Origin: Flammulina velutipes
Taxonomy: Eukaryota; Basidiomycota; Agaricomycetes; Agaricales; Physalacriaceae
Reading direction: 5' to 3'
Assembly: GCA_011800155.1 (NCBI GenBank)
Contig: CM022370.1
Span: forward strand, 3,038,001 to 3,102,000
Length of the DNA stretch: 64,000 nucleotides
The first letter of the stretch is position 1. Every line of letters begins with the position of its first letter. The notes beneath the pieces are model-generated. The model had not been told where the DNA came from and ran no database searches. It saw nothing but the letters and a program-made list of their open reading frames with translations. The translations under genes and the position numbers were made by a program. Positions 20,623-41,779 of this stretch are shown piece by piece.

Positions 20623-21098
20623 ATGTATCGCTCGTACGAAAAGTACCAACTAACGTACTCCATTTCAAACGTCCACAAAGATACCATCAACTCTATTCGT
20701 TTCTCTCCTCATGGACAGTATCTCGCCTCTTGTTCTCACGACGGTACCGTGGTCGTGGTGGACGTAGAAGGCGGGAGAACTGTCAAACGATATGCAGCCG
20801 AGGGCTGTCCGCCTTACGCTCTGACTTGGGGAGGAAGCTATAGCCTAGGAACTATTTGCCTGTACGTTGGGCTGCTCGACGGGCGTGTTCTGCAATACCG
20901 TCAGCCAACTCCGAACAGGGTATGTCACCAGTTTCCTTGGCCCCGCACAGATGATGACCTATGGACTAGGTTGTAAAATTTTTCTCCTTCCTTGGATCCT
21001 CTCAAGACACGACTGTCCTTGCGAAGCTGGCTGGGCCCATCAGGGCACTTCACTTTGACTATGCAACAGAGAGATTAATCGTCGCGCATGGCAAAGAC
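20623..21098 (+). CDS. WD40-repeat protein, exons 1-2 (gene continues at 40696)
   Basis: Exon 1 is 20623-20919 and exon 2 is 20970-21098, with a GTATGT...CTAG intron. A WD40 unit is evident (HKDTINSIRFSPHGQYLASC then HDGTVVVVDV). Both exons are whole numbers of codons (142 in total). Exon 2 ends ...LIVAHGKD at a good donor, GTATGT, at 21099. Nothing that follows for 19.6 kb continues the protein, but the exon starting at 40696 does, in phase 0. WD40 propellers are protein-interaction scaffolds; this type, with a hydrophobic C-terminus, is common in Agaricomycetes and of unknown role. Confidence 0.75.
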
Positions 21099-21613
21099 GT
21101 ATGTATTCTCATGCAGACAACGTCCGGAAGTAGCGACGACCTTCCCTTTTTTTGCGTAACTTGTTGACGCACGTCCAGATGACTGGAGAATACGAACCTA
21201 TACCGTAGACCCAATACATAAAGTCGTGCTGGTGAGCACACAAGAAAAATACACTTTTCCAGCTATAAGCACAAATAACCTAACCAGGGTAATCCCTCCT
21301 GCTTAAATATACATTACGCGGGCTGTGCATAATAAGCGTCTTTTTGCTGCTTGCGCGTTCATTACCCAATCTGGGTCCCTCCCGCCCTTCCCGCCCCGCC
21401 CACCGTTCCTGATCGGGAATCTCAAGAGATCTCATCCCTGGTCACCGATTTTGTCGATCGGCACTTCTTTGGCTAATCGCCACCTGTCCCGACGGCTTCG
21501 TACCAAAAACCCGTGACATTCGCGATATACATATATAGACCGTAAAACTTGGCTGTAACATCCCGCTCCCAAATGAAAATATCTACCCCATTTCCGTTCT
21601 CAATCCACGTCAC

Positions 21614-22246
21614 CTAAATCTCATCTACACCGTCGTAGTCCTCCCCCAAACCGTGAGCCAATTTCTCCACATACTCAGCCATCCGGTCCGCCTTTTCGGC
21701 TGCGCCACACTCGCCGTGATTTTCCCTGATACGATTGGCAAAGGACGTGAGGTCTGTAGTGACGAAAAAGAGGTCTGAAGCGGCAGTGACGCGGTAGCGG
21801 AGGTGGGCAGCGGTAGCCCAGTGATCTCTGGGGTAGATATGTTTCCTCCCAAACTGACTGGCACCTTCGTAATCCTCTGAATCCCCCAGACCATGGGCGA
21901 GGAATCCGACACGTTGCGCCAACCCATCTGCCACGACAGCTTCGTTACAAAGGGCGCCGTATGAGTGGCGCAGCTCAGAAGCCAAATGATAGAGGTCAGC
22001 CACGAAGGCGAAGACGTGACTACGAGCGGTGATCCGATAACGGAGGTGAGTGACGCTTGGGTCCTTAGCAGCGTCCTGCCTATTGGAATCATCGTAGTTA
22101 CGTTCTACGTAGCGTTGGACATCGCGCTGCGCGTATTTTTGGGCATCGCGTTGCGCGTAACGAAGAGAGTCTCGCAGCAGGTCCCAATGCGCGGCTCGAA
22201 GGGCGTCGTGCAGAGCCTCGTCAGGGCTAATTGCAAAGGCAGACAT
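21614..22246 (-). CDS. Unrecognised 210-aa protein with an internal duplication
   Basis: A single open frame from ATG 22246. Residues about 66-128 and 147-206 are two copies of one unit: both start HLRYR(I/V)TA, have an aromatic/hydrophobic middle and end with LAHGLG and an acidic DY. The N-terminus carries a short Tyr/Gln/Arg-rich periodic stretch (YAQRDAQKYAQRDVQRYVER). It is not a family I know. It lies near the left end of the putative giant element, divergent from the KDZ transposase gene 250 bp away, so the two could share a promoter region. No intron, unlike the neighbours. Confidence 0.55.
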   Translation of the reverse strand: MSAFAISPDEALHDALRAAHWDLLRDSLRYAQRDAQKYAQRDVQRYVERNYDDSNRQDAAKDPSVTHLRYRITARSHVFAFVADLYHLASELRHSYGALCNEAVVADGLAQRVGFLAHGLGDSEDYEGASQFGRKHIYPRDHWATAAHLRYRVTAASDLFFVTTDLTSFANRIRENHGECGAAEKADRMAEYVEKLAHGLGEDYDGVDEI

Positions 22247-22499
22247 AGTGAATATTACTGAAGAGATATACAGCGTGCTCTCGCAAGAGGTGAAGGTTGC
22301 TTAGAACGTCTAGCGCAAAACAAAAACATACTTATTATATTTAGGAAAAGAAGCGGCCCTAATGAATGACGTCACAGATAATAATAACAAGCAGACAGTG
22401 TACTTTGCGCTGCTCTGTCGGTGACAGGTAAGTAATCCTGGCTTTTTTACATATATCAATGGATTCCTTTCGTTCCTTGCCTCCTCCCGTCAACATTCG

Positions 22500-25400
22500 A
22501 TGCAGAGAGAATTGCAACGGCTCCTAAAGAAAAAAAGTGGACACCGACGTTCCTCGTCCACTCCGTCAGCCTCGTCGTCTCAGGCCACGACCACTGTAAC
22601 GGAACGAGTCACAAAATGGCAAGGCGACGCTATGACACCCGCACGCGTCTCTTGGTATCAGAGCACCGTGATAAACGACATTCCGGATCCGATGAACATA
22701 TCAGACACATCACAATTCCTTCAGAACGGGGGTGGCGTCTATACGTTCCCACAATCGTGGAAGGCAGCTCACGAGAGAAATGTTGAAGAACAGGCTATCA
22801 TGGCCGACCCCCACCTCCAAGAATGTTCGGAACACATAAGTCGAGCTCAATACCCCTCCGTAAATTCTTTTCCGTTCCGCCATGCAGGTACTAGCTGACA
22901 TACACCTAGGATGATCCCCTTCGAGTTTGGCGTACCCGCATAGATCACCACCTCGCACAACTTTTGACTTTGGAAGCCCCCTCGCTACATGCCCTCACCA
23001 GGTGCGCCGGAAAGGTTGGAGACGTACCTTGCTCTGAGAATGCAACATTTCAATGCCGAAGCTGTTGCGACCAACGTTTGTATTGTTCTACGTGCTGTCT
23101 GGATCAGCATCGTTCCCGTGGGTTATTTTTCCATCGAATCCAGGTACGTTCGTTTGCTCTGACCGTTCCCAACAAGTGACTGACCCCGGTCAAGCAATGG
23201 AAAGACACGCACTTTGAGAAAGTAACCTTGACCGAAATGGGGATGATTGTACAACTAGGTCACGATCCAGGCGAGGTCTGTTCCCTTCCACGTTACTCCA
23301 GCGCAAAGAAATTTGTAGTCATCGACGTCGACGGAATCCACACTATCCGTATCCAATACTGCGGGTGCGGTAAGGCAGACCCAGCCTACGACATCCAACT
23401 CTTGGCACATAGACTTTACCCTGCGACTACATCGAACCCGGAGACGTGCGCCACCTTCCGCGCTCTGGAACATTTTCAAATGTTATCCTTCATGTCCAAG
23501 GTATCGCTGAGATTGATCACTTAGGCCTACATCTGAATGGCTGCCTAGGTGTCTGCGTGGGAGTACTTCCACACAGTCTGCCGACTAACAGATAATACTG
23601 GAACGTCTACGCCGCCGGTACGTTGACGACTCGCTTTAACACGTCTGACGGATACTAAGTACGTTGCTACAGGATCGTTATCAAAATTTCCTCCTTATGA
23701 TTCGTCAATGGAGGCACCTCAAATCTTTAAAAAGATTCGGACGAGCCAACGATGTTACTGGACGAGCAGGAACTCGGGAGGGTGACTTAGCAGTACGATG
23801 CCCAGCCTGCCCTTATGCTGGAATAAATATGGAGCCTCGCGTCCCGTTGAGTACCGTTGCTCGTCCAGTTTCCCTTACTAACCTAACCCACCACACAGGT
23901 CATGTCCCAACAAGTTTGCAGATCAACTGTTCATAGCGGTTGATGCCAATTTCCGTCTCCAACACCGAGGTGGTGGCAGTTCCCTTATCAAAGACCCGAC
24001 GTTCAACGACGGCCACGCTTATATGTGCTCTGATGTGCCTTTTGAAAAATACCTGGAGGTGTTTGATAAGCCAATGACAGAAGAAAAAAATTCCTGCAGC
24101 CGATTTGACGCTGTCAAACTGGCGAACATGAAGGGTGGCAAAGGTACGACTACCACGGGCGTGGTTGCCGTTGTCTGTGCACGCCACGACATGAAACGGC
24201 CGAACTCCGTTGTCAATCTTAAAAAAGGAGAACGGTAGATTCCCTCCCCCGATCATTTTAGGGCTCCGACTAACAAATGGAACTAGGTACGTTTTTTCGG
24301 ACTACGCTGTCCTGAAGACGCTAGGCCATGCACCACCCTCAGAAGTCGTCATCTCTTACGATATCGCCTGTGTATGGTGCAAAAGCCTCTCAAGCCGTAT
24401 CACATCCTACGCTTCACACGATAAGTCCTTGTCTCCACCCTGTACCCAACATCTTCAATTTCTAGTTCCGAAATTTCATCTCCCTGGACATCTCGGACTC
24501 TGTCGCTACAGATTTTCTTTCAACTGGCTGCGGTACATGGGCCGGACTGATGGGGAGGCTCCAGAGCGGAATTGGGCGGCTTCCAACACTCTGGCCAGCA
24601 GTACCAAGGTTATGGGTTCGGGCGCTCGACGGGATACCTTGGACGACCATTTTGGGGACCAAAACTGGCGCAAGGTGTGCCTACTTCGTAAGGATAATCC
24701 TACTCTCTCCAAGCTCCGCACTAATCCGCTCCGTAGCAGCTGCTCTACGCTCCAAACTCCGCGACGCTGTCGAGAACCGCGCCGTCCAGGTCGTCTCTTT
24801 CCTGGCTTTCCAAAAATCCCTCAAAAATACCGACCAACTTGACACATGGAGAGAACTCGTGAAGAAATGGGAAAAAGACCCACAAAATATGAGCATAGAG
24901 AACCCGTTCGAACCGAAGAATCGAGGTAAGTTCATCGGATCCGAACGACGATCATAATACTTAACCGGAAATAGAATTGAAAGACTCGTCTGTCCAGCTA
25001 GCATTAGCCCAAGAGGAGGCTACTCCGAAGCCAGTGGAATACGTCCAGCATTCTGTTATTGGACCGGCACAATTTTTGACAACAGGTTTAGACCTGGAGA
25101 GTACGCAGTAAGCTGTGCTTATTCACTCACCCCCCTGTACACTAACATCCAGTCAGATTGAAGATGAAGGCTGAAGCGTCTGAGCTGAAGACGCGCACCC
25201 GACTTAGCGACTTGGACAACGCACGTTTCCAGGAAAAGCTCAACCGCCTGCAGCGACGTGTACAGGCTTTCAAGGACATTCAGGGGGTCTATATGCCTTG
25301 TGCTACTGTCTATCGCGCTGCCGAGGACACAGAGAGCTCGGGAACAGCGGAGCCTCCTTACAATATTCCACTCCTGCTTCCATCAGCTTTCTGTCGGACC

Positions 25401-26230
25401 TCTACGCAGCCGAAAACCCAATTAGATGTTCTGCTTCTCACCATTGAATTCCGTCTTCGGGAGGCGCGCGCGGAAGATACTCTGGCACGCCTGAGGGAGC
25501 ACTTACTTCTTCGGAGCAGGATGTATCGAATCAAAGATCGTCAAGTCCGTGGCCAAGTTCTTTCCACCCGAGCCTCCACTACGTTACACGCTGTCAACAT
25601 AACTATTCTAGCAGATGCCACGCAATATCGCACCCATTATCGTGCACTCGACGCTCTGGACCCCTTCGTAGCCACACACACCTGGAGGCAAAACTTGAAG
25701 TTACTGCAGGACAGCGATATGAAAACGTTAGAGGAGTCGGATGAATCCGAAGGACGTCGGTCTCTATCGTGGATATGGATAAGTCAGGTTGACGTTTCCA
25801 CCGAAGACGGTATGCAAGAAGGTCAGTCTCCGGTTGCAGTCTGTTGCTATTCCGCCGTTCCCTAACACATCACCGACCTTTAGCCTTGAGGATTGAGTGG
25901 TGCAAGTCACGGGCGCGCGCTCAGCGCTGGCAAGAAGAATGCGTCATCTTGAGAGAAGAGATGAAGCGTGTGGTGAAGTCCATCCAGTACGAGATCCAGC
26001 GCTGGACGACCTACACTACCGGTGACGGTGCGGAGTGCATGCGCACCGCGTCAGGGTTCTCGCGAGGTGCCAAAGCTTACGCCCATCGACAGATCGCACT
26101 ACGACAAAAAATGCTTCAACACGCCCAATCGATTTTTACGAAATTACCCGGGGATGTGCCTGCAGTCGTTGGGGAAAACGAGAACTTAGAGTCTATAGAT
26201 GTAACAGTGGACTTGGATATTGTAGTGTAG
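22500..26230 (+). CDS. KDZ transposase, apparently intact
   Basis: Eleven exons (22500-22859, 22910-23143, 23195-23500, 23549-23617, 23673-23845, 23899-24234, 24287-24687, 24737-24925, 24975-25107, 25157-25821, 25884-26230) sum to exactly 1071 codons, 1070 aa, with no stop. About residues 152-188 form a cysteine cluster (CRSCCDQRLYCSTCC), the CxC zinc domain typical of KDZ transposases. The RNase-H-fold core has FIAVDANFRL (D near 395), VVISYDIACVW (D near 518), KFHLPGH, and DGEAPERNWA (E near 583-586), the expected catalytic acids for cut-and-paste DNA transposition. The C-terminal half is a long helical region with LRIEWCKSRARAQRW, also normal for the family. Intron splice sites are consensus; the first exon start is the first in-frame ATG. 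Intact frame across ten introns suggests recent activity. Confidence 0.88.
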
Positions 26231-26354
26231 CTTGTAGACAATCGAACTTCTTGTGTAAGTCGGCGCGCCTTAGCGAACTAGTGGACTTAGATATTGTAGT
26301 GTAGCTTGTAGACAATCAAACTTCTTGTGTAAGTCGGCGCGCCTTAGCGAACTA
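26207..26354. repeat. 74-bp tandem duplication over the KDZ stop codon
   Basis: Unit 26207-26280 is repeated at 26281-26354 with two mismatches. The first copy holds the last codons of the KDZ gene (VDLDIVV-stop), so those codons and the stop are duplicated downstream. Confidence 0.95.
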
Positions 26355-26727
26355 GGCAGGCTAACAAAATTGGAATGCACACGAGGGTCGAGGGACAGAC
26401 AGTCAAATATCCGTCAAGGAAAGCGCAAATAACGACATCAATCACAAGATAACAAAATATATAAGTAAGCGCTATTTACAATACACAGACAGATTTATAC
26501 TGTGTCGATTTTACCCTGTCCGTCACTGGCGTAGACGCTGGCGTTTAACTTGACGCTGGGAGGGAAGGAAATTAGAGAAGGAGCCACAATCACCAGAAAG
26601 ATCTTACCGAATCGTTGTCCCCCGTCTTTCTCTCGAGAAAAAATGCCTCGTCGCTGATGCTGGTCTCCGTCTAGAAAAAGATGCCAAGTTAATAAAGCTG
26701 GAGTCGTCGACCAGAAAATACTTACAG

Positions 26728-28033
26728 CTACAAATGCTCTCTGCCCCACGAGAGTTTCTGGGGAGGGAGCTCGATGTTGTCCTCTTCATCTGTTGTGAGC
26801 GTATACGACGCCAATGTGAAGACGCGTCTCTTCGGACGTCTTCCCGGAAGCGGGAGAGTGGTTGGTGGGATGTTGTGAAGACGTGGGCTGCGTCGAGGTG
26901 GCGTGGGGTCCTCCTCCTTCCGAAGACGCCGGATTCGACGGCTACTGGATGCAGCAAGAGTGGGTGAGGTGTCCGCGACTGAGCTAGCGGACGACATAGA
27001 GCCTCTCGGCAGGCTCCCGTTAGAAAGGGTCTCGTCTACCCACTTCGTCACCCCCATCAACTCGTCATCCGTCTCCTGCATCTCTGTATCGAACTGATTC
27101 ATCTCCTCCTCGATCTCCTGGTTGGAGGGAAGGGGGCGTGGGGGGGTGGAGAAGAGCAGAGAAGGAGGAGGACGGGGCTTCAGCGTGGGGAGCAATGTGG
27201 CTGTGCGTCTGGGCCGGCTGGACGCAGTCTGTGGGACTGAGCGCTCCCTCTCCGGGGTGGGTTCCGCACTGGGGGGAGGGGCGGGTGGTACCTCGGGGGA
27301 TTGGACTGGAGAAATCTCGCTACAGTGCCGGGTGCGAGCCGCTGCCACGGTAGAGGCATCAATAGATGCTAAAGGCAGTGTCTTCGACGGCGGCACTCGT
27401 GTAGGGAATGGGGTGGGGCGCGCTTTGAGCGGTCTCTCAGGCAACGAGGCTCGCTTGGCTAGGTCGAGGTGCGGGACTGTGACAGTCTTTGAGGGAACGG
27501 AGTCTCCAGCTGGGGCACGCGCCTCCGAAGTTGTTGCTGGACGACCGCCCGTGGGCTGGTTTTTTTGTAAGGGCTGGGTCTTGGCGGGATTGCCCGTTTT
27601 AGAGTCCTGGCGCATGCGGATGTTTGCAGCAGCGTGAAGCAAATCCCTGATGTACTGCCCGAGAGAGTGAGCCAACTTGCTTGAAGACAAACTGAGAAAG
27701 ATATAATCGCACCTGGAACTCCTGAAACCGCCAAATGGCATATGGCCGAAAATCTATAGGGTCGGAGGCTTGAACACGCTTGAAACGACTTTGAAATCGG
27801 GGAAAAATCATATTGACAAGTTTCCAGACATCGCTACCGCCCAGGCCCAAAGAGCGCCGGTATTCTTCGTAGTAGTAGTTGATAAACTCGTATTCCGCTG
27901 CAGTAGGCTGTGCTGCGTCAGTAGAGGGTTCCCAAGGAGGGTGTCGTAACGTACCGTGTGGAGTGAGCTTCGGGACAACGATGTTGACGACGCCATTGAT
28001 ATTGGGGGGCGAGGGTAAAAGAGGGGGCAGCAA
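26728..28033 (-). CDS. Pro/Ser-rich basic protein, TE cargo, unrecognised
   Basis: A minus-strand frame open from 27741 to 26728 encodes a low-complexity protein rich in Pro, Arg, Thr and Ser, with an acidic helix (NQEIEEEMNQFDTEMQETDD) and basic segments near the end. Upstream, 28033-27725 encodes a more globular piece (...YEFINYYYEEYRRSLGLGG... FRPYAIWRFQEFQ) ending at a GTGCGA donor. I could not find a junction that links the two in frame, so either the donor is elsewhere or a one-base error lies between. The first ATG was not identified. The 3' end may extend: 26495-26640 has an open segment behind a GTAAGT...TTTCTAG intron. Function unknown. Confidence 0.45.
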
Positions 28034-28061
28034 AACCTTTTCCGTTTCTCATCTGCTCTTT

Positions 28062-28541
28062 TTAGCTATCGTTCGTCGCAGAAGAGTACAATCTTACCAG
28101 GAATATAGGATAGAGCTGCTTATATGCATTCTCCCTGGTAGAGGTTCTCAATATTTGCAGGATAATACCATCTTGCTGCCCGCAGAGGTCGTGCTGTCCC
28201 CTTCGACCTCCGTGATACTTTTGATCCCCGTTAACGTTGACATCCACACCCGCAGAAAAATACGACTCACCACAGTTGCACCGTGCAGTTACAACACAGG
28301 AAATACAATCTGACTGCCAGTCAAGGCTGCTCTGTCCAATTCGACCTCCGTGAAGCTTTTGATCCCCGTTAGCGTTGACATTCACATCAGCAGAAAAATA
28401 CGACTCACCACAGTCGCACTGTGCAGTTACAACGCAGGAAATACAATCCAACTGCCAGTCAAGGCCGCTCTGTCCAATTCGACCTCTGACGTTTTGATTC
28501 CCGTTAACGCTGTACATTTTGCATGGGGACTCGGGTGCCAA
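28062..28541 (-). CDS. Cys-rich tandem-repeat protein (46-aa repeat)
   Basis: A 159-aa minus-strand frame from ATG 28541 contains two and a half copies of a 46-residue unit: NGDQKLHGGRIGQSSLDWQ, then DCISCVVTAxCxCGESYFSA, then an Asx/Val-rich link. At DNA level the unit is exactly 138 bp (CTGTCC words at 28194 and 28332; TCAAGGC words at 28321 and 28459). Four cysteines per unit are conserved. There is no signal peptide at this ATG, though an upstream exon could supply one. The repeat is also open on the plus strand, so coding on this strand is an inference from Cys conservation and frame-keeping length. It might be a lectin-like module, but I cannot support that. Confidence 0.4.
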   Translation of the reverse strand: MAPESPCKMYSVNGNQNVRGRIGQSGLDWQLDCISCVVTAQCDCGESYFSADVNVNANGDQKLHGGRIGQSSLDWQSDCISCVVTARCNCGESYFSAGVDVNVNGDQKYHGGRRGQHDLCGQQDGIILQILRTSTRENAYKQLYPIFLVRLYSSATNDS

Positions 28542-28693
28542 AGAACAGAGCGTAGCGGTTTCTGGCCTCTCCGGGAAGTATCATTTGCGTCCCCTACATT
28601 ATACGTACACGGTGCCAGAAGAACCATCCTATGTTTTACTAACAAAAAAGTTTTGCGCTCGTCAGCCAAATGAACAGAGAAACATAACAGCAC

Positions 28694-29319
28694 CTACGGA
28701 AGACCGATATCAGCATCCTCCTCTAGCACTACCTGCCTGCTCATACCCTTCACTCTATCCTGAACGCGCCGCTTCTCCGCGTCCCTAACCCCTACGAAGA
28801 TGAGCTCCGGCTCTGTGTACTCTTCCGGACGTCTTAGAGAGACAACTCGAGGGTAGGCGCCCGGGTTGATCTCCTGACGATAGCGCATCCCGTAGGCTAG
28901 CAGATCGAGACGGTGAGTGGCACGATAACGGGCGGCGTGGATATTATGTCTCTGGCGCAAGACTTCTCGCTCTGACGGGGGCAACTCCTTCTCTCGTTGT
29001 CTTTTTCTATTGCGCATGAAGAGAATTACTAAGGTATCGTGAGCTTGAGAAATACTGACTGACCTCCTCATACGTTCTCTGGCTTGCGCTCTGACCCACT
29101 CCTTGCGGGCCTCTGCGGAGTCGGTTTGGTTTCCGTCCTCTCTTTCTCGTGCTCTTTTCCTAGAATGAACTTCTGGTTTAGTGTGACTTTTCTCGTTGGC
29201 ATCGAATCCACTGACCTTTCCCTCACGCGCTCACGCAACTGTTGATCTTCCCACTCAAGCTGCCGTTTGTGGTTGTAATCAACCTCTTCGTCCGTATAGG
29301 ATGGACTTGAGCCTCGCAT
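28694..29319 (-). CDS. Highly charged coiled-coil protein, TE cargo
   Basis: Three exons on the minus strand starting MRGSSPSYTDEEVDYNHKR at 29319 join in frame: the first ends REERS-type ...RERVRER near 29218 (GTCAGT donor), the second contains KRAREREDGNQ ... WVRAQARERMRR, the third KRQREKELPPSEREVLRQR and ends at 28694. The product (about 170 aa) is dominated by Arg/Glu/Lys and should form a long helix or coiled coil; a segment HRLDLLAYGMRYRQEI is more conserved-looking. Not recognised. Confidence 0.5.
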
Positions 29320-29329
29320 AGTTGGTCGT

Positions 29330-30000
29330 CGCAGTTGAGGTTGTAGCGTCCACGTGACCGTTTGATAACAACGAGCCTAGAACTTGAAGAGCCTAGACCT
29401 CTGCGTGGTGGGTCGGTAACTTACGCGGTGAGTTCGTCCTTATGCGGTGAGTTCAAACCACTGTTATGTTATTCACAGCCCTTCCTCTGGGCTTCACGCC
29501 GTAATTTAGCCAGGGAAACGGTACTGAAGTGTATTCTGAGCAATATCGTCACCTTCTCTAGTAGACCAGCCCATTCCATTACAGCTTAACGTTCAAGAGG
29601 CCTATTGATCCATCAATATGATACTGATTTCTTCCTTCGATACTGGACTCTAATGGAATTCTGTCTTCACTACCTCGTCAACTTGGCCTTGTGCTTTTGC
29701 CATGAGCTTTAGCATCCTCACTATTGGAACTGCTTTCTTTGCTTGGCTCTACCCGTAAGCAGTATGTAACACACTCTCTTCTACCTATTTTTCTACTTGG
29801 AAACCGTCGCATTGGACCTAGAGATGTTGGACAAGGAAGAGGGTTCTAAGGTCATATCAGACTACGTTCGGTGGACATCAACGTTAAAGAGAAGGCCCTA
29901 AGGGAGCCGACGGAAAGCACTTCGAACGATGTGGGAGGACAAGATGGATAGACATTGCGGAGCTTTACGTTGACAGACTACGATACATGTACAACACTGA
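29330..30000. other. No supported gene
   Basis: Between the charged coiled-coil gene and the viroplasmin-like gene no exon chain is convincing. A short repeat of GCGGTGAGTTC occurs at about 29427 and 29444. Confidence 0.4.
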
Positions 30001-30004
30001 TACT

Positions 30005-30953
30005 CTAATCTATGGAAAGCAAACGGCAGACACCCATGTTGCGTGAAAGAAGGAATTTCTCGCGCGCCTGGTACCAGTCGTCCAACTTAAGGTAGCAGTT
30101 ACGAGGGATACCAACAACGTGCGGGGAAACCACTACCCTAGAGGAAATTGAGAGTCAGGTAAGAGGACCAAGGAGAATGGGACTAACCATTCATTGTTCA
30201 ACCCAATCCAAGTTCCCTGAGTGACACAGTACCAGTAGCCGGTGTGAGGATCGGCGGGCACAGTATCCAAATCCATGGCATCCAAGGCAGCCAGTGTCCT
30301 GGCGCTCATCATAGCGCGGGCCTCGGGCGGGATGGGTCCGGCAGGTTGGATGACAATAGGTGTTGGTACAACGTCCAAAGAGCTAGCATCCGCTGCCGCG
30401 GTCGCCAAGGTGGGTGCTTCCCCGGAAGGAGGGTGGAGAGCGGAATAGGCCATGAGGGCTGGTAGGTCCCTGGCTTCATCCAGCTGCGCTAGGAGGTTGG
30501 CCAAAACGGGCAATGGGATGGTCACCGAGACACTGGGGATAGCGCCGTCGTCTGAAAGGGTTACTTAGTGAGGTGTTTGGATATGTGGGATTTTATCACG
30601 TACCAGGCCCAGTCTTGCTATCATTTTTGGTGGTTTCTAAAGAGAGTGGATCAGCCAAGGGATACCGGAGGCGCTGTACGACCTACCCATGTCGCTGCTC
30701 TCCTTCTCCGGGTCGGCACCCAAAACCACAAAGGTTTCGTTATCCTCGTCTGTAAGAGCGGGGAGTTAGAGAAATGTTGACGAGCTAGGTGAAATTTACC
30801 TTGGGGGTGTCCTCCATCGTAACTTCCCGACGGCTTTTCGTAGTTCACAGTGAGGGGCGCATCGCTGGAGAGATCCGAAAGACTCAACCCGTGGCTCAAC
30901 AGTTGGGAAAGAAGCGTGTCCATTTCGTTGACGGGAGCTGGAGTGGGAGTCAT
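30005..30953 (-). CDS. Protein with a C-terminal RNase H1-N/viroplasmin-like domain
   Basis: Exons 30953-30800, 30749-30687, 30551-30188 and 30137-30005 total 238 codons (237 aa). The first two thirds are Pro/Ala/Leu-rich and acidic. The C-terminus reads GYWYCVTQGTWIGLNNEW, then VVSPHVVGIPRNCYLKLDDW and YQAREKFL, which follows the layout of the RNase H1 N-terminal (caulimovirus viroplasmin-like) domain: W/YYVV..G...G(I/V)...W....P.V.G(V/I)..A.......F....EA...F. That small domain binds RNA/DNA hybrids or dsRNA. No RNase H catalytic domain follows. Similar stand-alone genes are common in basidiomycete repeat regions. The junction at 30188/30137 (donor GTTAGT) is the one that completes the domain. 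Confidence 0.55.
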
Positions 30954-31015
30954 CGTAGGGCAGATGCAGAAGGGCATTTGACTGGCAAGTTCTACCTTTA
31001 TAGTTCCCTAGACGT

Positions 31016-31365
31016 TCGTGCTAAAGCGTAGAGATCGTGCTAAAGCGTAGAGGTCCACAGCAGTCGAAAACAACTCCGTGGGGAAGATGTATATGTAACC
31101 TACCGAGACTCCGTGAGTTAAATGCATACTAGGTTATTGAAAGACAGCGCTCACTGGTAAGTAGAAACGTCCAGTGTGGGGAAAACGTATCGCTGGAGAT
31201 CCACGGTTGTCAAGGACAACTCCGTGGGGAAGGTGTATATGGAACCTACAAAGACTCCGTGGATTACATGCATGCCATTGGGAGACAACACTCGTTGGGA
31301 GAGATGTCCAGTCTGGGGAAAGTGCATCGCAAGCTGGTTATAACCGTGTCCGCGTCCACTTGGTA
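31016..31365. repeat. 146-bp tandem repeat and an 18-bp duplication
   Basis: TCGTGCTAAAGCGTAGAG occurs at 31016 and 31035. A longer unit starting CAACTCCGTGGGGAAG at 31071 is repeated at 31217 (period 146 bp, diverged), including GTATATG.AACCTAC and GTCCAGT.TGGGGAAA. These lie between two divergent cargo genes. Confidence 0.8.
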
Positions 31366-31511
31366 GTCGGAATGCGTTACAGTCCCGACCCAAGACTCCG
31401 TGCACGACAAGTATGGTGTAGAAACGGTCGGTTAACCTTACTGCCCTGGCCGTGTACCCCCGATCGTCGTCGTTAAAACAGCAGGTCGGTCGTACAGTCC
31501 GTAGGAACCCC

Positions 31512-32324
31512 ATGATTACCCATTCCTTGCTGGACTATCCGGTTCAGGACTTGATACCACTGTCGACCTACAATATCTTTCGCGTGGGTCACAATAGCCT
31601 CAGAAGCTTTATTGGGGATCGGGTAAGTTCCCTGGCTAAATGCTGGTAGTAGCACTCACCAGTTCAGCATCTCATCGTTTCACCCGCGGTTCACTGGATC
31701 CTCCTGCAACAAGCCAGCCCACTTCGGATCCTGATTGAGCAGATCGAGAACCCACTCTCTTCGGGCCTGTACGCCGGGGAGATGCTGGAAAGTTTCTGTG
31801 GTGAGCTGCTGGCTCATACGGAGAGACACCATCCTACCGGGGTCTTCCACACCATCGACCTCACCTATCGTCGTCAGGTGAGCGAGCTGGAAACCTGAGA
31901 GACAGCAGACTTACCTACCCGTCAGCTACTCATCCGGCTCCTCTACTCCTACGCCATGGGAGGAAAAGACTACGATCCGGGTCCATGGTCCTTTGGGCTG
32001 GACGATGCGCAAATGATGCACGCCCTGCGCGTTCCCAGCTGCCACGATTCCGGTAGGTGCGGGCCCCGTCTTTCCCGACATGTTCTAACGCGAACGACAG
32101 AGATACGGAGAGCCGCGAAAGAACAAGCGCGCAGTCGTATCGCAGCCTACCGTAACGCCCTGGGGGGTGAGATTCCTGTTCCCGATCCGGTCCTCAACGA
32201 CGACCCCCAACGGTATCCTAAAATGGGGGCAAGCCGAACGGAGCACCCTGTTGAGCGTGTTACCAAGCCAAGAGCCTTATGGGCCTTACGGGTCTGGGGG
32301 GAGGGTACTGAGACAGTGTGGTAG
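31512..32324 (+). CDS. Unrecognised 223-aa protein, TE cargo
   Basis: Exons 31512-31622, 31668-31877, 31926-32052 and 32101-32324 sum to 224 codons. The product begins MITHSLLDYPVQDLIPLSTY, has a mostly helical, Leu-rich middle (LLQQASPLRILIEQIENPL; FHTIDLTYRRQLLIRLLYSY) and a basic C-terminal helix (RRAAKEQARSRIAAYRNAL). No domain recognised. Its intact frame through three introns says that it is, or was recently, under selection. Confidence 0.55.
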
Positions 32325-32384
32325 GTAGCGTAGCCAATGCAAATCGTGATTGCGTACAATAGTAGCAAGAAATGTCTAGAGTAT

Positions 32385-33136
32385 CTAAGCGTCGGGGTCG
32401 GGCCAGAAGAAAGCCTCCCACGGGACTGTCACCGGTTGAGGATTGACCGTCCAGCCTTGAGGAGACTGGAAGGGCGGGATGACACTGTGGTTGCGAACAG
32501 CTGGGGCGCAGGAGCATCGGAGTTCGCCGACGTCAAGGCGGACGTGATTGGACTTCCAGGGGTCCAGTTGAGGATTTTGAGTGTAAAAATTGGCGCGCCA
32601 ATTGGCTACAGAGTCACCGTTAAGCACTGGAAGGGCACGGACTGCGTCCAATCGACCAGCACGCACCAACAAAACCCTCATCCAAAAAGATAATCTCGTC
32701 GTTGGGGAGCCGAGATACGCCACTGTACCCTTGGCTCCGGAGTTGCTCCTTGAGACGTTGGAGGTCTCCCGGCGCTAACGATACCTTTTTGGCCACGCTA
32801 AAAATACGTGAGTGGAAGACAAGGCGCTGTCATAGCAAACGTACCTGTTAAAACAAGGGCAGAAACCAGCCCACTTCACCACAATTTGCATGACTTTCCC
32901 CCGCTTGGTGACAGCAACGGGAGCTTCTAAAAGGGGGAGCTACAGCGTTAGAAGCGGAAAGAGGGCTTGAAGTAAACAGACGCACCCCACGTGTATTCGT
33001 TGAGCGGGGAAGACGTCGCCTTCGGAGGTGGTAGCGTGTGGCGGCCGATATCCAGATCGTTCGCGACGGGATCAAAACCCGGCCAAGGATATTCACTCCA
33101 GGGCTCCCGTGTGAAGTCCTTCCGGTCGGTGGCCAT
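32385..33136 (-). CDS. Unrecognised 194-aa protein, TE cargo
   Basis: Exons 33136-32986, 32926-32845, 32797-32667 and 32605-32385 total 195 codons, with clean GTGCGT and GTACGT donors. It begins MATDRKDFTREPWSEYPWPG, contains a possible beta-rich core (KRGKVMQIVVKWAGFCPCFN) and LAPGDLQRLKEQLRSQGY, and ends with a Pro/Trp-rich tail (TVPWEAFFWPDPDA). Not recognised. It is transcribed away from the TET/JBP gene to its right. Confidence 0.55.
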
Positions 33137-33239
33137 GGTGGAGGGAGAAGACCCAGCAAGTTGGTCGTCTTTATGTTGGGACAAGGCCAGGATACCGGTT
33201 CGGTTCAGAAAAGGCCACGCGATGGCCCTGTAGGGGCAT

Positions 33240-33620
33240 ATCGAGCAGCGAGGAAGCGGCGAGTTGCATGACGCCGCCAAGCTCGACAATCCTCCGAGGA
33301 GTATGGACCACGTATTCCGGAATGCACATACAGTGTGCCGGGTTAGGGTATCGTTCACGTTGAGGTACTGCCGGGACGTAAGAAAGAGGATGCGGGATCG
33401 CCGTGTACGGGGAAGCCTGGAAACGGTGAGTTGGATGACGCCGCCCAACCTCACGACGCTCAGACAAGTATTCCGGAACGTGTAAACGGTGCGTCGAATT
33501 ACACCGTCGTGCGCGCAGAGCTAGACCACGATGGTCTGCTCAGCCGACATCCTCGTTCCTCCGGTGAGCCAGACCGCGATGGTCTGCTCAACCGTACACA
33601 CCGTCGCCTGATGTAGCGTT
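33240..33620. repeat. Diverged local duplications upstream of the TET/JBP gene
   Basis: GACCACGATGGTCTGCTCAG at 33523 recurs with one or two changes at 33571. A longer unit with GGCGAGTTGCATGACGCCGCC (33259) and ...GTATTCCGGAAT recurs at about 33427 as GGTGAGTTGGATGACGCCGCC ... GTATTCCGGAAC. Confidence 0.7.
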
Positions 33621-33779
33621 CCGTGCTGGAGGTCTGTGCTGAACGTGCTTGGGTAAGAGCGAAACGTGTTACGGTCGATCAAGGTCTAGATTGGTTTATT
33701 AATAACCCTCATAATTAAAACACAAATATTGTACTCTTTAAAAACCATACTGACTAGGCTGCTGGCGGACGCCAAACGC

Positions 33780-34925
33780 ATGACAACCACGGAACGTCGC
33801 AAAGGGAAGACTCGACGCAGTAAATCGAAACCCGGGAAGCGGCCCGCGAAGACGAAACGCTGGTTGGAATACTCGCGTGCCCGAATTAGGGAGCATTCCG
33901 GTCAGTGATCGACATCCATTGAGAGCTCCCAATTGATCAGGCTGCCACTTAGTCGTGTTCACGGTGGATGAACACCCGTCCCACTTCCTGGGTGGCGTCA
34001 AGTGCCAACAGACGGTTCGAGACAGCATCGAGACACTCTACCCAGGCGTCCGACCCGCCGAGCTTCCTAAGGCCTGGGAAGACGATTTCACCACCGTCTC
34101 ATTCTCTCTGACGCCAGAAATGAACGAGGCGGATCGCCTGTCTGGGTTGGTGACACCTCCTTCGGTCTTGGTCCAACGCTACGACAGTGTTTACGACGAG
34201 TGGGTCTGTGCGCGATTTGTTGAATTGTACGACGCGTTCTTAGACACCGCGCCCGTGCATAAAGCTAAAAAAGCTGATCCCCGCTCTTCCACCTTGGCTT
34301 TCCATCTCGGTATCTGGCAGTTCACCAGCGCTCGGCAGAAAATTACCCGGGAGTCCCGCGAGCAGACGCCGCAAGCTATCAAGGCTATGGACGACCTATT
34401 GCTGTTTATCAAATCCCACATCGTTCCCAAAATCAACAACCGACTCCTCTATGATTTTCCCGATCAGTGGAGACGCGCACTTAAGTGAGTCCTTGTTCCC
34501 TTTCTTATTGCTTACTGAACCTGTATGTTTCTAGAGTCCGGCAGCGACTTCGACGGAACGCTAGCATCTTGAAGAAGTTGACTCTGCGTCCCGCTTTGGA
34601 TCTCGGTCCGGCCATTTGCTCCATTGCAATCAAGGACGGGTCGAGTGAGATCCTTCATTTGGATTTCTCCGACGATCCAGCTTTTCTGACGTGGATTTTC
34701 GTGGCCGGCTCATTTGTGGGAGGGGATTTCTGCTCCCCCCAACTCGGGAGACGCTTCCCTATCAGGCCTGGACAGCTATTCGCAGTACGTGCACGTTATG
34801 TTGTGCACTGTAGCGCACCTTACCAGGGGAGGAGGGTGGTCATGACGGGTTTTATGGAGGCTACGTTGCTACGGAAGGCTGACCGAGATGTCCTCCTCAG
34901 CGAGGGGATCGTGGAGCTTTCATAG
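33780..34925 (+). CDS. Fungal TET/JBP-like 2-oxoglutarate/Fe(II) dioxygenase
   Basis: Exons 33780-33900, 33953-34484 and 34535-34925 give 348 codons (347 aa). The N-terminus is very basic (RRKGKTRRSKSKPGKRPAK), fitting nuclear, DNA-bound action. The C-terminal third has the double-stranded beta-helix signature: ILHLDFSDDP with the iron ligands H259 and D261, GSFVGGDFCSPQLG, the FPIRPGQLFAVRA strand, the distal ligand H309 in RYVVHCSAP, and GRR (317-318) for the 2-oxoglutarate carboxylate. This is the arrangement of the basidiomycete TET/JBP family, whose members oxidise 5-methylcytosine (or thymine) in DNA; TET/JBP genes are expanded in mushrooms and linked to KDZ transposons. Upstream codons (LLADAKR) are open, so a further 5' exon is possible. 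All catalytic residues look intact. Confidence 0.75.
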
Positions 34926-35030
34926 ACAGTTATACACTAATTATACTGCGCTCTTTGTTTTCTAAAATCCTTATACCGTACACTGAGTAGCAAGAAATAG
35001 GTAATACATTGCAAGAACTATGTTAAACTA

Positions 35031-38000
35031 TCAAGCTAGCGAGAGAGCCAGTATAGTAGCACGAAAATCATCAAAAGCCCGTTGCCACGTCGTCAACTCC
35101 ATGCTCGAACAGCCCCAGTGGAATAGACCCAAAGTTAGTGCGATTAGCCCGTGCTCGCCACCACAACGGAGGGCGGAGAGTGCTCGGCCGTCTCTGCTCG
35201 TTGAGGGCGAAGGTGCGCTGGGTCCGTCCGGTTGAACTGCCTTCCACCAACCAAGCCACTTCTCAGAGTAATCCTTAGCATCCCCCTCCAAGATTTTGAC
35301 AGGTCGAGAGAAGTCGTAGCCTTCCGACATCCAGGTAACCAGTTGGACGGGCCGGTCGTCGTAAGGTTTCAGTTTTTTCTGAAAGATCCTTGAGTTACTG
35401 GTAGGAAAGGGAAGCGGAACCGGACAAACCGTATATTTTGGGTCTTCTTCCACAATCTTGATCTCTAATTCCCTCAACGCCAGGATCAGTCTATCCCAGA
35501 AGTCCGCGGATTCGCCCATGCATACTCCCCGCAAACCCTGAATGAGGCGCTGAAGCAAAGGCGAAAGCGTGTCCTGTTGGGCGGCGACGACAATCCGGCG
35601 AACTGGTCTGCGGGGAAGCTCTTCAGTTGGCGATGGAGGCAGCAGTTCGTGAGTTTTTTTGCTGCGTGGTCGAACGGCCTTCGGTTTTCGCTTGCGCTTT
35701 GTAGCTGGGTGCACGTCAAACGATACCTGCGGCTCTGGTTCCGGCTCCGGCTCCGGCTCCTGCGCCACATCGCGATCGGATAGATGTCCTGGTGCGGCGA
35801 CGGTGTGGTGATGAGCCTGTTCGCGGGGAGGCTGCAAGTCTAGCATACGGGATGGCCAGACAGGTGGGTTTTGACCGTTAGAAGCAGGCGGAAAGTTGAA
35901 GTCCAGGAGCGGGGTTGAAGCCGGGGCCCCCTCGGAAGACATGAAAGACCCAAAAGACCCAAAATTATCCTGGTTCGCAGAGACATTGTTAAGATGCGTG
36001 GAGGCGCTGTGAAGATTTTCTGGAGTCGGATTTTGGCCATACAAATGCACGAGCTGGTAGACCGCCGGGGGATACGAGATGAGGTGATTGAGAGACCAAG
36101 ACGGAGAGGGACCAATCCTGGGGACAGTGGGATAGACCGGAGTCAACGGAAGCGTCTGGGATGAAAATGGTGTGACGGGCTGATTAAATACCGACGGGCC
36201 GCCGTAAGAGGGACGCTGGCGGCTGTCAACAGGAAATAAAGCCTGGGAGAAGGAGCCAGGAGGGGGACTGTGGGCCGATTGTGCTCCGAATGAGCGCTGG
36301 CTTTCGTGAAAGATATTGGCGGAGTAAAAGACGGGCGGTTCCGAACTAGTCGGTGCTGCTTGTGTGGCGAAGGGGGGGCTGTAATCATGGCTCTCCAGCA
36401 GGGATTTAAAGAGCCCACTCCTCTGGGAATCGTCGAGAGCGGAGGCGGTGAAGTCCAGGTAACCTAGGGGGATCGAGTGGTCGTAGTTGGCGTCTACCTG
36501 TACAGAGGGGGGGGGGAGTGGTTGGGGGATCGACAGTGGCGTAGAGCCCAGTACGTTTCTTCCAAGCTCGGCTAAGCTGCCTGCTGCCGGGTGGATGGGT
36601 TCACCGGAAACGGGCTGCCCCCTGACCAGAGGATGTCCTACATCCGAAGAAGCAATACTTGTAGAGCTCGACGGTACGGAGGCTGTTGAGCGCTGAGCAT
36701 CACGAGATTGGACTTGACTCGCTTCTGTAGCATACGAGTTAACCGGCGCGTTACATTAACCGAATAGGTGACAACTTACTGTAGCACGTCAGCGCGTACT
36801 CTCTAAAGGGTCGCTCAACGCGTGCCTCAAAATCTGGATAGGCATCCATAAACGTTTGTTCATTGGGGTTCGTGGCGCCGTGACATATCCTAAAGGTTTA
36901 TTTAGTCACCAACAACTGAGACTTTGGCTGTACTTACATTTCGGTTGCCAAATGCCCCTCCCCATCCGGACCAGCCATGATCAAAAAGCAAGTATGGCCT
37001 GTTTGGCTAACCACAGACTCGAGGAACTGATGGGCGTGGACTGGGAGTCCTACAAGATTGCTGGAAGAAACGTTAGTTTGATGGAAGCGACTAGGGTGGA
37101 GCCAACGTACTGCTTGAGAACTTCGTTGGAGATCGGTTCCCGTGCAGACTGGGGATTTAGCTTCTTTCTCTTCTCTTCTGTCTTGGCTGCCTGCCGCGCT
37201 GCCGCGCTCGCTGCTTTCTCCGCTTCAGCGGCGTCGTTCCAGCGTTGTTGGTCGTCGGAAGGCAAGGCCTCGAAGGCTAACGCGGTGGCTGTATTGCGGA
37301 CATGGACGGGGGCCGGAGGCGCTGGCTTCAGGGAGTGCGCCGCTGCCAAGGCTTCCAACTGGGCCAACGATTCTGGGGTAGGAATGCGACCGATGTCGCA
37401 GAGTTGAGAAGTATCGATTAGAGCCTTCGTTAGGACCTGGATTAGGTTGGCTTTTTTAACAAGCATAAGGGCCCGTGGTTCGTACACGTCTCGGAAAGAC
37501 GAGTAGTGATCTTTGGAAAATAGCTCTTGACTCGTATGGGAACACTGTCTTTTCTTGGGGCCCTTTGCCGTGATCAATGTGAGACCGACTTTGCGTTTAT
37601 TGTGGTTGTTGAAATACCATCGAAGACGCTATGACCACCCATCAGTTGACGGTTCCGTAAAGAGAGTGTAGATAGCGATCATACCTTTCGAATCCGGGTG
37701 AGAGTGCTATCTTGGGGGCCAGACTTGACAATCTCCACATCAGGAATGTCATTTAGTCGAAGTGTGCTAAAGTCCTGAGAGATTGAGGGGCATTCGGCAT
37801 TCCAGGGGGTCCCATGGGTTTTTTGTTGAATTGTTCGACCAACGAACGCGGGCTCCAACGCGTGAGAAACTCGGTATCAATCATTCGGAAGAAAAGCACG
37901 GCCCCACCCACGATAGTCTTAGCCTCTAGGTATGCTGGCTGCTTGGAGTCTAGGTATAAGCGTTGTTCGTCGGTCGACCACCGGCGGCCGTCGAGTTTCG

Positions 38001-38058
38001 CTGGAATAGCAATGACCGGGACCGTGGGGACATCAGCAGTCATAGGATTGGCGTCCAT
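35031..38058 (-). CDS. Large TE-associated basidiomycete protein (about 900 aa), one apparent frameshift
   Basis: From ATG 38058 (MDANPMTADVPTVPVIAIPA) the exons run leftwards through RIRKRLRWYFNNHNKRKVG (introns near 37640-37690), an Ala/Glu-rich helix, HNLVGLPVHAHQFLESVV (GTACGT...CCAG intron near 37065-37115), ICHGATNPNEQTF...RPFREYALTCYK (introns near 36900 and 36730-36780) and a long Pro/Ser-rich exon 36728-35031 with an (EP)n run and a C-terminal block (WLGWWKAVQPDGP; LIALTLGLFHWG). The WYFNNH segment and the C-terminal W..LQP block recur in many uncharacterised mushroom repeat-linked proteins. Near 37805-37830 one base must be added (an A run or the GGGACCCCC stretch) to keep NKK...GTPWNAECPSISQDF in frame, so it is either broken or misassembled there. 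Role unknown; transcribed convergently with TET/JBP. Confidence 0.6.
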
Positions 38059-38485
38059 GGAGATAGACGGCCCTACTAACGGAAGGTGAGTTTCGGCAGT
38101 GAGGAGACGTGGGGAGACGTGGGGGAGGTGTGGGGAAAGACAACTTTACCTGGACGTGCAACCAGAGGCGGGGAAAAGAGAAAAGCAGGTAACAGTTTCT
38201 ACGCTGGGAGACAAGGTTTTCTCATGCAAAAATTTGAACAGTGGCGGGAATGTCTTCTATTTTTAGATACCCGTGTTCCTAAATGCACGACACCGTGTTT
38301 AGATACACCATCGTTGTGCTAAATGCATCCCCCTGAGCGGGGTCATCAACTGTAAACGCCTTGGGATTGCTCGTGTTGATAGGTTGGCCTGCTAAGTGTC
38401 TATATTTCTGCATGCACTTTCGTGCTAACACCCAGATCAGTCAGTGCTCTCAAATATATATTTTTCTGCTTTAACCACATCCTAG

Positions 38486-39305
38486 TTGAGTGCACGTCAA
38501 TCCCAGAAACGGCGTCTCGGACTATACACATTTCCTGGTAATCGACGTATTCGGGTGTTTCCGCAGATAGCCTTCCGATATTTTTCCTGCCACCTTGTAC
38601 GGACGTCTCGGAATCAACCTAATACAGCTCTCTTCAGACTCTCTCAAACCGACCACCATGTCCCGATTGTGAGGACGCTTTCTCCCGCCCAACCTGTCTC
38701 TAACTCACTCCGTATTGTCAGCTACCCTTTCAGTGGGCAACGTCTCGCATTCTTGAGGGAGCGATGGTATGTATACCTAAAGCTATGGGCTAAAAACGAC
38801 ATCGAGATGACCAACATGCTGGCGGTTTATAGTTCGTGATATACGTTGCTGGTCTACTCAATTACTAACACAATGCTCAGTCAGCGCTACATTCGTGGCA
38901 AAATTCCACTGGTGGATACCGTTGGATGAGGACCTCGATCCTAATGCAGTTTACGACGAGACTTCCTTGCCTGCGACCACCCTTTCTCGCAAGAGGGACA
39001 TGCAACGGGACATTGTGGAGGTGAGTTGGGTCATTTTCCGTCTTCATCACATTACCAAACGTGATATTTAGAAAGTGCTGGGATGGTTGGCTTTTATGGT
39101 TGCTCGACACAACGTGGAACATAAAATTTTGTTGTTCGAAGCTCAGTTCGGTGTTATGTTCTGCGCCGTTGATCACGCTCAGCCTTGCCGCATTGCAGGC
39201 ACCCGCCAAGTAGTCGAGTTTGCCAACGCCATGTCACCTCCCCAGGCCCACACAGTACGCCCCTTGCCGGAGGATTTCAGAGTTGAGATGGAACGTTGGC
39301 TTTAG
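38486..39305 (+). CDS. Unrecognised TE cargo protein (about 216 aa)
   Basis: Exons 38486-38766, 38885-39020 and 39072-39305 sum to 217 codons; the first exon may instead begin at an acceptor (CCTAG before 38486), as no ATG opens it. Recognisable segments are FVAKFHWWIPLDEDLDPNAV and VLGWLAFMVARHNVEHKILL. The second intron has a TTACTAAC branch point. Divergent from the 900-aa gene, with about 430 bp between. No known domain. Confidence 0.45.
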
Positions 39306-39439
39306 TGGGCTGTCCGTATTAGACTTGGCCTAAAATGTAGTTTTTGGTGGGCAATTGAGAGACACTGTCGTTCTACGGTAAATAGACGCTGCGGGAGCGG
39401 CTGTTTGGAGTGAAAGAAAGAGTAAATGCCGGGATAGAT

Positions 39440-39620
39440 GACCTGTTAGCAATAAATATACATCTAGTGTGGTTATACGCAGATATATCTTCTGTCATTA
39501 TAACCACGCTCTAACTGTACGTTACCCTCCTGTTAGCAACGACGAATATACATCTGGTGTGGTTATGCTCGTATACGTATTCTGCCGTTTTAACCATGCT
39601 CTAACTGTACACTTCCCTCA
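39440..39620. repeat. 87-bp tandem repeat
   Basis: CCTGTTAGCAA..AATATACATCT.GTGTGGTTAT and CTCTAACTGTAC at 39442-39524 recur at 39529-39614 with scattered changes. Position near the right end of the putative giant element suggests subterminal repeats. Confidence 0.8.
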
Positions 39621-40182
39621 CGGAGTTCAATCAATTCCCGCGTCCGTAGTGCATTCCACTCCTTGCCCAGTTAAAGGCCTTGAGGCTTTCCACGTCCCCT
39701 CCCCACCTATCCCCCGTCGAATCCTCATACGCGGTAAGTCTCCCTTTTTTTTATAGATTCGAGAGACAGTCTGAAAGGTGATATTTGTCCAGCAAGCATG
39801 GATCTCCGTGACGATTTCGTGTTGGTGACACCCGGACGCTACTCTGCCCAAACGACAAGAATCTTATCCTTGGAGCGGAGGTCGGACAGGTTGATGAAGA
39901 AAAAATTGCGTTTCATGGCGTTTATTCGGGAGCGCTGTCGTCGGATGTCGGGTGGAATACCGGACACGGAAATCGCAACAGTTGTGGTGAGACACAGTGA
40001 GTAGAAGAAAGACGAACACACTACGCGCTGCTAACTGGAACTCTAGAATGCGATGTTTGCAACGTCCAAGTAGACGCTCTCCGAGAACGGTGGCGTGCAG
40101 CAGTGGAAGCCAGAGAAAGGGCGCTGGATGACGCCCGAGCCGTAAAAAGATGGAAAGATCGAATTTTGTTTTCACAGGCATA
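39565..40182 (+). CDS. Small coiled-coil protein, TE cargo
   Basis: Exon candidates 39565-39734 (ending PRRILIR), 39795-40003 (SMDLRDDFVLVTPGRY ... RMSGGIPDTEIATVVVRH) and 40045-40182 (CDVCNVQVDALRERWRA ... LFSQA-stop) join in frame with GTAAGT and GTGAGT donors. The last exon is a charged helix (ARERALDDARAVKRWKDRI). The first exon start is uncertain. Not recognised. Confidence 0.45.
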
Positions 40183-40695
40183 ACGTAGTGTTATTTGTAA
40201 CCTTCGGGAACGCAGTAACGCAGTCGTTATTGTCGATTTGAGTGTTCGCATCATCTGCAGTCTCCGAGACTGCTACAACGACGATGCAGACATAAGCCAG
40301 GATGTCGATAAAAAAGAAGCCATTTTGATGGAGGCACAGAACATATCTAGATTGATAGAGCGCAACACACAGTAACCCCGAGTGTCCCGGAGCGTTGTCG
40401 ATGAGAGACTTAGCGAATGACCGAGAAGCGCCAAGGACAGTTCAGTCAACATCATCGATTCCTCATCAATTGATTCCATCGAGGATCAGGCGATCGAGAT
40501 CCAGCTGGAAATCGGGAACATGTGGAGAGAGACCTAAAGAGGCAAGGAGGCGGCAGAGCGGGAAGTTCCCACAACCCCAGGTACAGCACAGCTAACCCTT
40601 GTAAAGACCCATTACCCAGCTGTGCTTATTGGAACAAAAAATACATTTCCGACTGCGTCCTTATAACCAAACAAAGTGTATTGCCCCTACCTTAG

Positions 40696-41595: not shown

Positions 41596-41779
41596 TCAAG
41601 AGAGCGGGCTTGCTGGGGCTTGCCGTTGGTGCAATTCTAGGGTGTCTTTTAGGATGCCTTTTGGGTAGGAATGATGCCTTGCTAGATGATGGGAAGTTCT
41701 ACGTGAAAGACAATTTCCTGACGCCTATAGGCTCCTTTCTACGGTGGCTTGCCGACAAGGTAGCAGATCTTTGAATATA

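Follow-up and report, generated by a model that had tools for sequence, protein, structure and literature searches.

A gene for a WD40 protein in the basidiomycete Flammulina velutipes is present as two halves about 19.6 kb apart, which raises the question of whether a transposon occupies an intron of exceptional length or has broken the gene. The locus lies in a stretch of 64,000 nucleotides (hereafter, the window), which corresponds to C3:3038001-3102000 of the 38.1-Mb, 23-contig assembly of this genome. An earlier note on the window had placed a KDZ/TET-JBP element at 21099-40695, inside an intron of the WD40 gene. In our analysis, a probability of about 93% is assigned to the reading that a Kyakuja-like KDZ cut-and-paste transposon of 19,508 bp, carrying a TET/JBP-like dioxygenase gene and about eight further conserved genes, entered exon 3 of the WD40 gene in a single, recent insertion. 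The observations behind this reading are the element ends, the target-site duplication (TSD), the related copies, the open frames and an exon structure based on a paralogue.

Both edges of the element were searched against the assembly, and homology to sequences outside the locus begins at approximately 21194 and ends at approximately 40701. In total, five copies with both ends were found in the genome, i.e. the window copy, C5b (C5:2319493-2394231), C1a (C1:1610484-1643869), C5a (C5:356312-400571) and a copy at C1:3676929-3725027, of which the ends only were read. The ends common to these copies fix the limits of the element at 21194 and 40701, and the boundaries given in the earlier note were thus displaced. 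The left end GAACCTATACCG and the right end CCTTAGGTGGTG are present in all five copies; the termini of the window element are GAACCTATACC...CCTTAGGTGGTG, with GAACC as the first and GGTGGTG as the last bases. Each copy is flanked by a 7-bp TSD in which all seven bases match: AGAATAC in the window (21187-21193 and 40702-40708), CTTATTT in C5b, AAATACT in C1a, GCTGTGG in C5a and GTACAGT in the fifth copy. The duplication in the window was first read as 8 bp (GAGAATAC), but the base preceding the left duplication matches in just two of the five copies, and 7 bp is therefore reported. Of 109 inverted pairs, the 25 longest include none that joins both ends of the element; the ends share only a weak inverted match, subterminal and offset, of approximately 26 bp (p 0.01 by shuffles). 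Segments of the window element are 99.6-100% identical to C5b. Partial and more distant relatives of the left part of the element (66-68% identity) are located at C10:2242605-2265024, and four short tandem duplications are present within the element, at 26206-26355, 28194-28518, 31016-31052 and 39455-39619, with units of 74, 138, 19 and 90 bp, respectively.

Both parts of the WD40 gene are open, i.e. the upstream exons from 20623, which match the Pfam WD40 family (E 4e-9), and the downstream exons to approximately 41595, and the interval is occupied by transposon sequence, as the earlier note had described, with an open frame for a CxC2-KDZ transposase. The downstream half has three other matches in its own genome, the best on C13 (E 1.8e-14; the others, 7e-5 and 2e-4). 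This C13 paralogue (L045, C13:618400-620600) matches both WD40 halves on one strand and in the same order (36% over residues 7-127 of the upstream half and 29% over residues 59-225 of the downstream half, the alignment crossing introns). The coding sequence of the paralogue runs HGQDVSVLEQNTS, followed by a 46-nt phase-1 intron and then SWRQ. When 21130-21178 is removed from the window and the sequences on either side of the element are joined as at an empty site, the corresponding sequence is HGKDVCILMQTTSGN and then DWRIHCQ, and the positions of the 46-nt intron and the 49-nt intron of the window agree within one residue. Splice solutions were listed with donors taken from position 21030 onwards and a minimum intron length of 40 nt; three of them are in frame, and these and the join proposed in the earlier note were scored against the paralogue. 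The donor at 21130 with the acceptor ending at 21178 scored 94. Donor 21122 with the acceptor ending at 21188 (74) and donor 21103 (GTATTC; 67), which had been our first guess for an exon insertion, were rejected, and the earlier join scored 60. Because the best-scoring solution reads through GTATGT at 21099, this motif is assigned to coding sequence, and its codons GTA TGT align with the coding GTA TCT of the paralogue. The insertion point lies 15 nt inside exon 3, which starts at 21179. In an uninterrupted allele, ATGACTGG would stand directly before AGAATACATTGCC, and the sequence would read ...ATGACTGGAGAATACATTGCC..., with the 49-nt intron upstream.

A location of the element in a true native intron, as first proposed, would account for the canonical-looking donor and acceptor, and GTATGT at 21099 and CTTAG at 40691-40695 do join in phase. 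The TSD, however, lies within sequence that is coding by the paralogue alignment, the supposed donor is itself coding, and CTTAG is part of the conserved right terminus of the element; we regard this location as very improbable. A clean gene disruption, which the earlier note had kept as its fallback, describes the locus better (94 versus 60). A related possibility is that the exon-inserted element is removed as a 19.6-kb intron from GTATGT to its own TTAG ending at 40695, yielding a near-normal WD40 protein. The join (21098/40696) would replace just a short stretch around the site, and the terminal CTTAG is present in all five copies, but an in-phase join has a chance of one in three, the predicted introns of the window have a median length of 52 nt (n = 60; the predictor permitted 45-120 nt only), the span contains approximately ten genes on both strands, and, judged by the paralogue, the donor GTATGT belongs to coding sequence of the native gene. 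Such splicing is considered highly unlikely. There is likewise little to be said for the two halves never having formed one gene, or for an assembly artefact: a protein search with the downstream half found no orthologue spanning the junction, but one paralogous stretch spans both halves in order and the TSD is perfect. These results sustain the earlier proposal that a KDZ/TET-JBP element entered one WD40 gene in a single insertion. A 135-residue protein (P0005) on another public contig of 564 bp is identical to the downstream WD40 part at 122 of 125 aligned residues. In the region 41524-41771, a possible last intron would add to the WD40 protein a hydrophobic C-terminal segment, which is seemingly present in the paralogue.

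The features of the locus are listed in Table 1. We count ten gene models in the element (A, B and D to K); a low-scoring model at 31151-31986 (-) was excluded. Gene B encodes the transposase, with matches to CxC2 (PF18803, 116.4 bits; cut-off, 27) and KDZ (PF18758, 125.8 bits; cut-off, 26.6), and the N-terminal part of KDZ lies at approximately 23924-24238 (64 bits). The transposase had been called intact, and the sequence bears this out for the open frame and its domains. No Pfam family was found at E 0.05 for genes A, D, E, F, G, H, I, J and K, where the queries for D and K were open reading frame (ORF) pieces and that for I covered residues 1-313, the remainder of I being queried in pieces at E 0.01. 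For protein I, 7,995 candidates were scored, and none was a homologue at E 1e-3.

Table 1. Features of the WD40 locus and the inserted transposon. Ka/Ks, ratio of nonsynonymous to synonymous substitution rates relative to copies C1a and C5a.
Feature	Position	Strand	Basis and remarks
WD40 exon 1	20623-20919	+	Open frame; GTATGT donor at 20920; Pfam WD40 E 4e-9
WD40 exon 2	20970-21129	+	DVCILMQTTS aligns with paralogue DVSVLEQNTS; includes GTATGT at 21099 as coding
Native 49-nt phase-1 intron, GTAGCG...GTCCAG	21130-21178	+	Highest alignment score with the paralogue among four splice solutions
WD40 exon 3, 5' piece, severed by the insertion	21179-21193	+	Paralogue-based splice solution
Left TSD copy, AGAATAC	21187-21193	+	Comparison of five copies
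KDZ/TET-JBP transposon, 19,508 bp	21194-40701	+	Ends common to five copies
Gene A, 210 aa	21614-22246	-	Open in window and C5b; Ka/Ks 0.27 against C5a and C1a; no Pfam match
Gene B, CxC2 + KDZ transposase	22500-~26200	+	Domains and gene model; Ka/Ks ~0.06; 3' end uncertain (predictor extended to 26967)
Gene D	26743-28048	-	ORFs conserved with C5a and C1a, no gene-finder model; Ka/Ks ~0.15 over 82 and 141 codons
Gene E, basic protein	28629-29319	-	Gene model; Ka/Ks ~0.25
Gene F	30005-30977	-	Gene model; Ka/Ks 0.14-0.15; frame broken in C5b
Gene G	32385-33136	- (less certain)	Gene model; Ka/Ks 0.17-0.18; C5a has one stop; some parts of this region show conservation on + as well
Gene H, TET/JBP-like 2-oxoglutarate (2OG)-Fe(II) dioxygenase, 347 aa (putative)	33780-34925	+	Relatives; Ka/Ks 0.09-0.10; one stop in C5a
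Gene I, 913 aa, long low-complexity stretches	35031-38058	-	Gene model; Ka/Ks 0.18-0.19
Gene J, 164 aa, strongly conserved	38658-39305	+	Ka/Ks 0.06; no Pfam match
Gene K, exons uncertain, low-scoring model	39565-40537	+	Conserved blocks 39792-40200; Ka/Ks 0.22-0.24 over hand-set exons
Right terminus CCTTAGGTGGTG, contains CTTAG	40690-40701	+	Identical in five of five copies
Right TSD copy, AGAATAC	40702-40708	+	Comparison of five copies
WD40 exon 3, 3' piece; begins with the 7-nt TSD copy	40702-40838	+	Open frame RIHCQFKDPP
WD40 exons 4-6	40889-41595	+	Open frames, paralogue; native end may be ~41771

The copies C1a and C5a represent a diverged subfamily, with 70-75% identity to the window element in the better blocks and Ks values of 0.75-2.5, partly near saturation. 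In comparison with these two copies, all ten models have Ka/Ks ratios of 0.06 to 0.27 over 82 to 1,006 codons; C5b was left out of this calculation, as its alignments can run into nested insertions. As a control, wrong-frame and antisense ORFs were analysed, and the median pN/pS (the ratio of the proportions of nonsynonymous and synonymous differences) was 0.84 for 73 ORFs over model exons, in all frames of that strand, and 0.79 for 74 others. Of the latter, 20 were at or below 0.48, the highest value of any model. Because control ORFs also reach such low values, the low ratios are strong for the transposase, TET and gene J only and suggestive for the other genes. In the genome as a whole, 166 KDZ-domain matches were counted (150 of 159 candidates were scored, and introns often cause two matches per gene), which represents a large KDZ expansion. 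A second transposon candidate is present beside the element in the window, starting approximately 1 kb downstream of the WD40 gene: a long open model at 42647-47300 (+) with a Transposase_21 (tnp2) domain (9.8e-13).

The product of gene H shares 37% identity, over 94% of its length, with an Armillaria ostoyae protein (P0003) that bears the Tet_JBP domain (PF12851). The HxD...H arrangement is kept, i.e. HLD and a downstream histidine align with both P0003 and the CcTET-type chain 8jkk_A. A profile made from the window protein and four relatives gave weak matches to CMD1 (E 0.022), 8jkk_A (0.057) and CcTET (0.06), with HxD and the distal histidine aligned, and two of the five members of the alignment match PF12851 (best, 1.6e-5). 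At the positions of Gly331 and Asp337 of CcTET, gene H has Asp and Thr, respectively; the alignment, given for 8jkk_A, has no gaps here but is weak. The HxE of the PE type does not occur in gene H, in which the motif reads HLD. Gene H may represent a type beside PU, AG and PE.

Several points weigh against the insertion of a TET-bearing transposon into exon 3 and have to be set beside the in-phase join at 21098/40696. GTATGT at 21099 looks like a stronger donor than GTAGCG at 21130. The paralogue piece that contains DVSVLEQNTS was read by hand from an open frame; the automatic model had the same acceptor and skipped this piece, and a frame change stands in the paralogue sequence further upstream (at approximately L045:735-760). 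An orthologous empty site was not found by the protein search with the downstream half, which yielded one match that stops short of the junction. As to the element itself, the gene H protein alone has no Pfam match, and its TET assignment rests on relatives and the weak profile match; a structure prediction of the Armillaria relative P0003 was too poor (mean predicted local distance difference test score, 37.4) and was not used.

C5b bears on the age and history of the element. The window element and C5b are collinear, and their alignment of 19,508 columns contains 39 substitutions and 8 gap columns, with some of the gaps at the joints of nested insertions. Transitions account for 37 of the 39 substitutions, and 28 of these 37 are at CpG, while 25.5% of C and G lie in CpG (binomial P 2.5e-10). 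This excess suggests deamination of methylated cytosine after the window copy and C5b parted. C5b is 74.7 kb in length through four insertions, i.e. two related long terminal repeat (LTR) elements of 12.2 and 15.0 kb with 791-bp LTRs (100% and 99.7% identical, respectively), a fold-back element of 2.7 kb and an insertion of 25.4 kb that contains two KDZ matches. According to the coordinates, the 25.4-kb insertion lies in the TET gene of C5b and one LTR element in gene I. Four of ten models are broken in C5b (F, the 31151 model, H and I) and none of ten in the window, with the 31151 model taken in place of D in this comparison; H and I of C5b are broken at least partly by the nested insertions. 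A full 74.7-kb element, from which the window copy would have arisen by internal deletion, was ruled out by short duplications around the inserts at the junctions. Apart from a fold-back copy that lies within one of the LTR elements, the three larger inserts have no match in C1a and C5a (E 1e-15, over 150 bp), and the fold-back family occupies other places in C1a and C5a than in C5b. Because of these junction duplications and the inserts without a match, the window copy is taken as the uninterrupted form. The 25.4-kb insertion (C5:2347961-2373311, L028-L030) has an apparent 7-bp duplication, TATGTTG, recognized by eye, and may be another large KDZ element, one whose insertion disrupted the TET gene of C5b. 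The fold-back family (approximately 2.5 kb) has three insertions in C1a and one in C5a.

In the favoured reading, the insertion into exon 3 duplicated AGAATAC and interrupted the WD40 frame 15 nt downstream of the native acceptor site. Judging from its domain and the TSD, the KDZ transposase would cut and paste the element with a 7-bp stagger. WD40 transcripts would be expected to end in the element, leaving a null or truncated WD40 allele. The TET/JBP-like protein would oxidise methylated cytosine on the element and counter its silencing; such an anti-silencing role of the element TET was proposed, and stated as not experimentally validated, in passages of PMC12730594.

The claim of a 19.6-kb fungal intron is thus not upheld, and what was most striking in the earlier finding is lost with it. 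What is kept is a KDZ element that moved recently and whose limits are precisely defined, together with its TET/JBP-like gene and TSD. The diverged subfamily (C1a and C5a) indicates which genes the element keeps, and C5b adds a sister from the same genome with nested insertions, from which it is clear that nesting alone can make a 19.5-kb element look like a 75-kb 'giant'. Together, the copies allow a test of whether a transposon-encoded TET protects its own element from methylation.

Large multi-gene mobile elements of fungi include the Starships of Pezizomycotina, which carry a tyrosine recombinase captain. The window element shares their large size and multi-gene content; the recombinase found in it is a KDZ transposase, no search being aimed at a tyrosine recombinase, and its gene set is common to the compared copies. 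The original report on KDZ/TET is that of Iyer et al. in 2014. No description of a ten-gene KDZ element was found in the literature searched, i.e. titles and abstract openings among the matches listed, with most subscription papers outside the search.

An oversized multi-gene DNA transposon of a different superfamily is represented by the En/Spm families of Chondrus crispus, of 16-20 kb with 4-5 ORFs, described in a giant-transposon review (PMC6431247) whose available text contains no match for Zisupton, Plavaka or TET. KDZ is also treated in passages of this review, of PMC8290104 and of PMC7473861. According to passages of PMC12810828, a reporter gene in Cryptococcus neoformans is a target of KDZ1, KDZ2 and KDZ3 (approximately 9-11 kb), with both introns and exons hit by KDZ2 and KDZ3. 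The window element resembles them in its KDZ transposase with a cysteine cluster, its large size and its insertion into a gene, and because they enter introns and exons alike, an exon insertion would be ordinary KDZ behaviour. The Cryptococcus elements differ in having terminal inverted repeats (TIRs) of 139-241 bp, CxC1, TSDs of 4-8 bp and about half the size, and no TET gene is mentioned in those passages.

The closest likeness among these systems is to the TET-bearing Kyakuja elements of Agaricomycotina (Kyakuja-1_LB and relatives), which, in the passages of PMC12730594 (Kojima 2025) used here, have 7-bp TSDs and CA...TG ends and lack TIRs. The window element has in common with them a KDZ transposase, an internal TET/JBP gene, 7-bp TSDs and no clear TIR, and the only named relative of its TET protein is from Armillaria, TET-bearing Kyakuja being known from Agaricomycotina. 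It differs in its 5'-GA...TG-3' ends and perhaps in its TET type, gene H having Asp and Thr, weakly aligned, where the AG-type TET of Kyakuja has Gly or Ser (CcTET 331) and Asp (337). The window element itself has approximately ten genes in 19.5 kb. We tentatively suggest, as a possibility with the odds against it, a separate KDZ lineage with GA...TG ends and a TET/JBP protein bearing neither AG-type nor PE-type residues, which would move as a fixed set of approximately ten co-evolving genes; its unknown proteins and the dioxygenase might form an anti-silencing and transposition module, and the CpG transitions might record ongoing host methylation of the copies. In the main reading, the window element is a large addition to a known kind of transposon, represented by the TET-bearing Kyakuja elements with 7-bp duplications.

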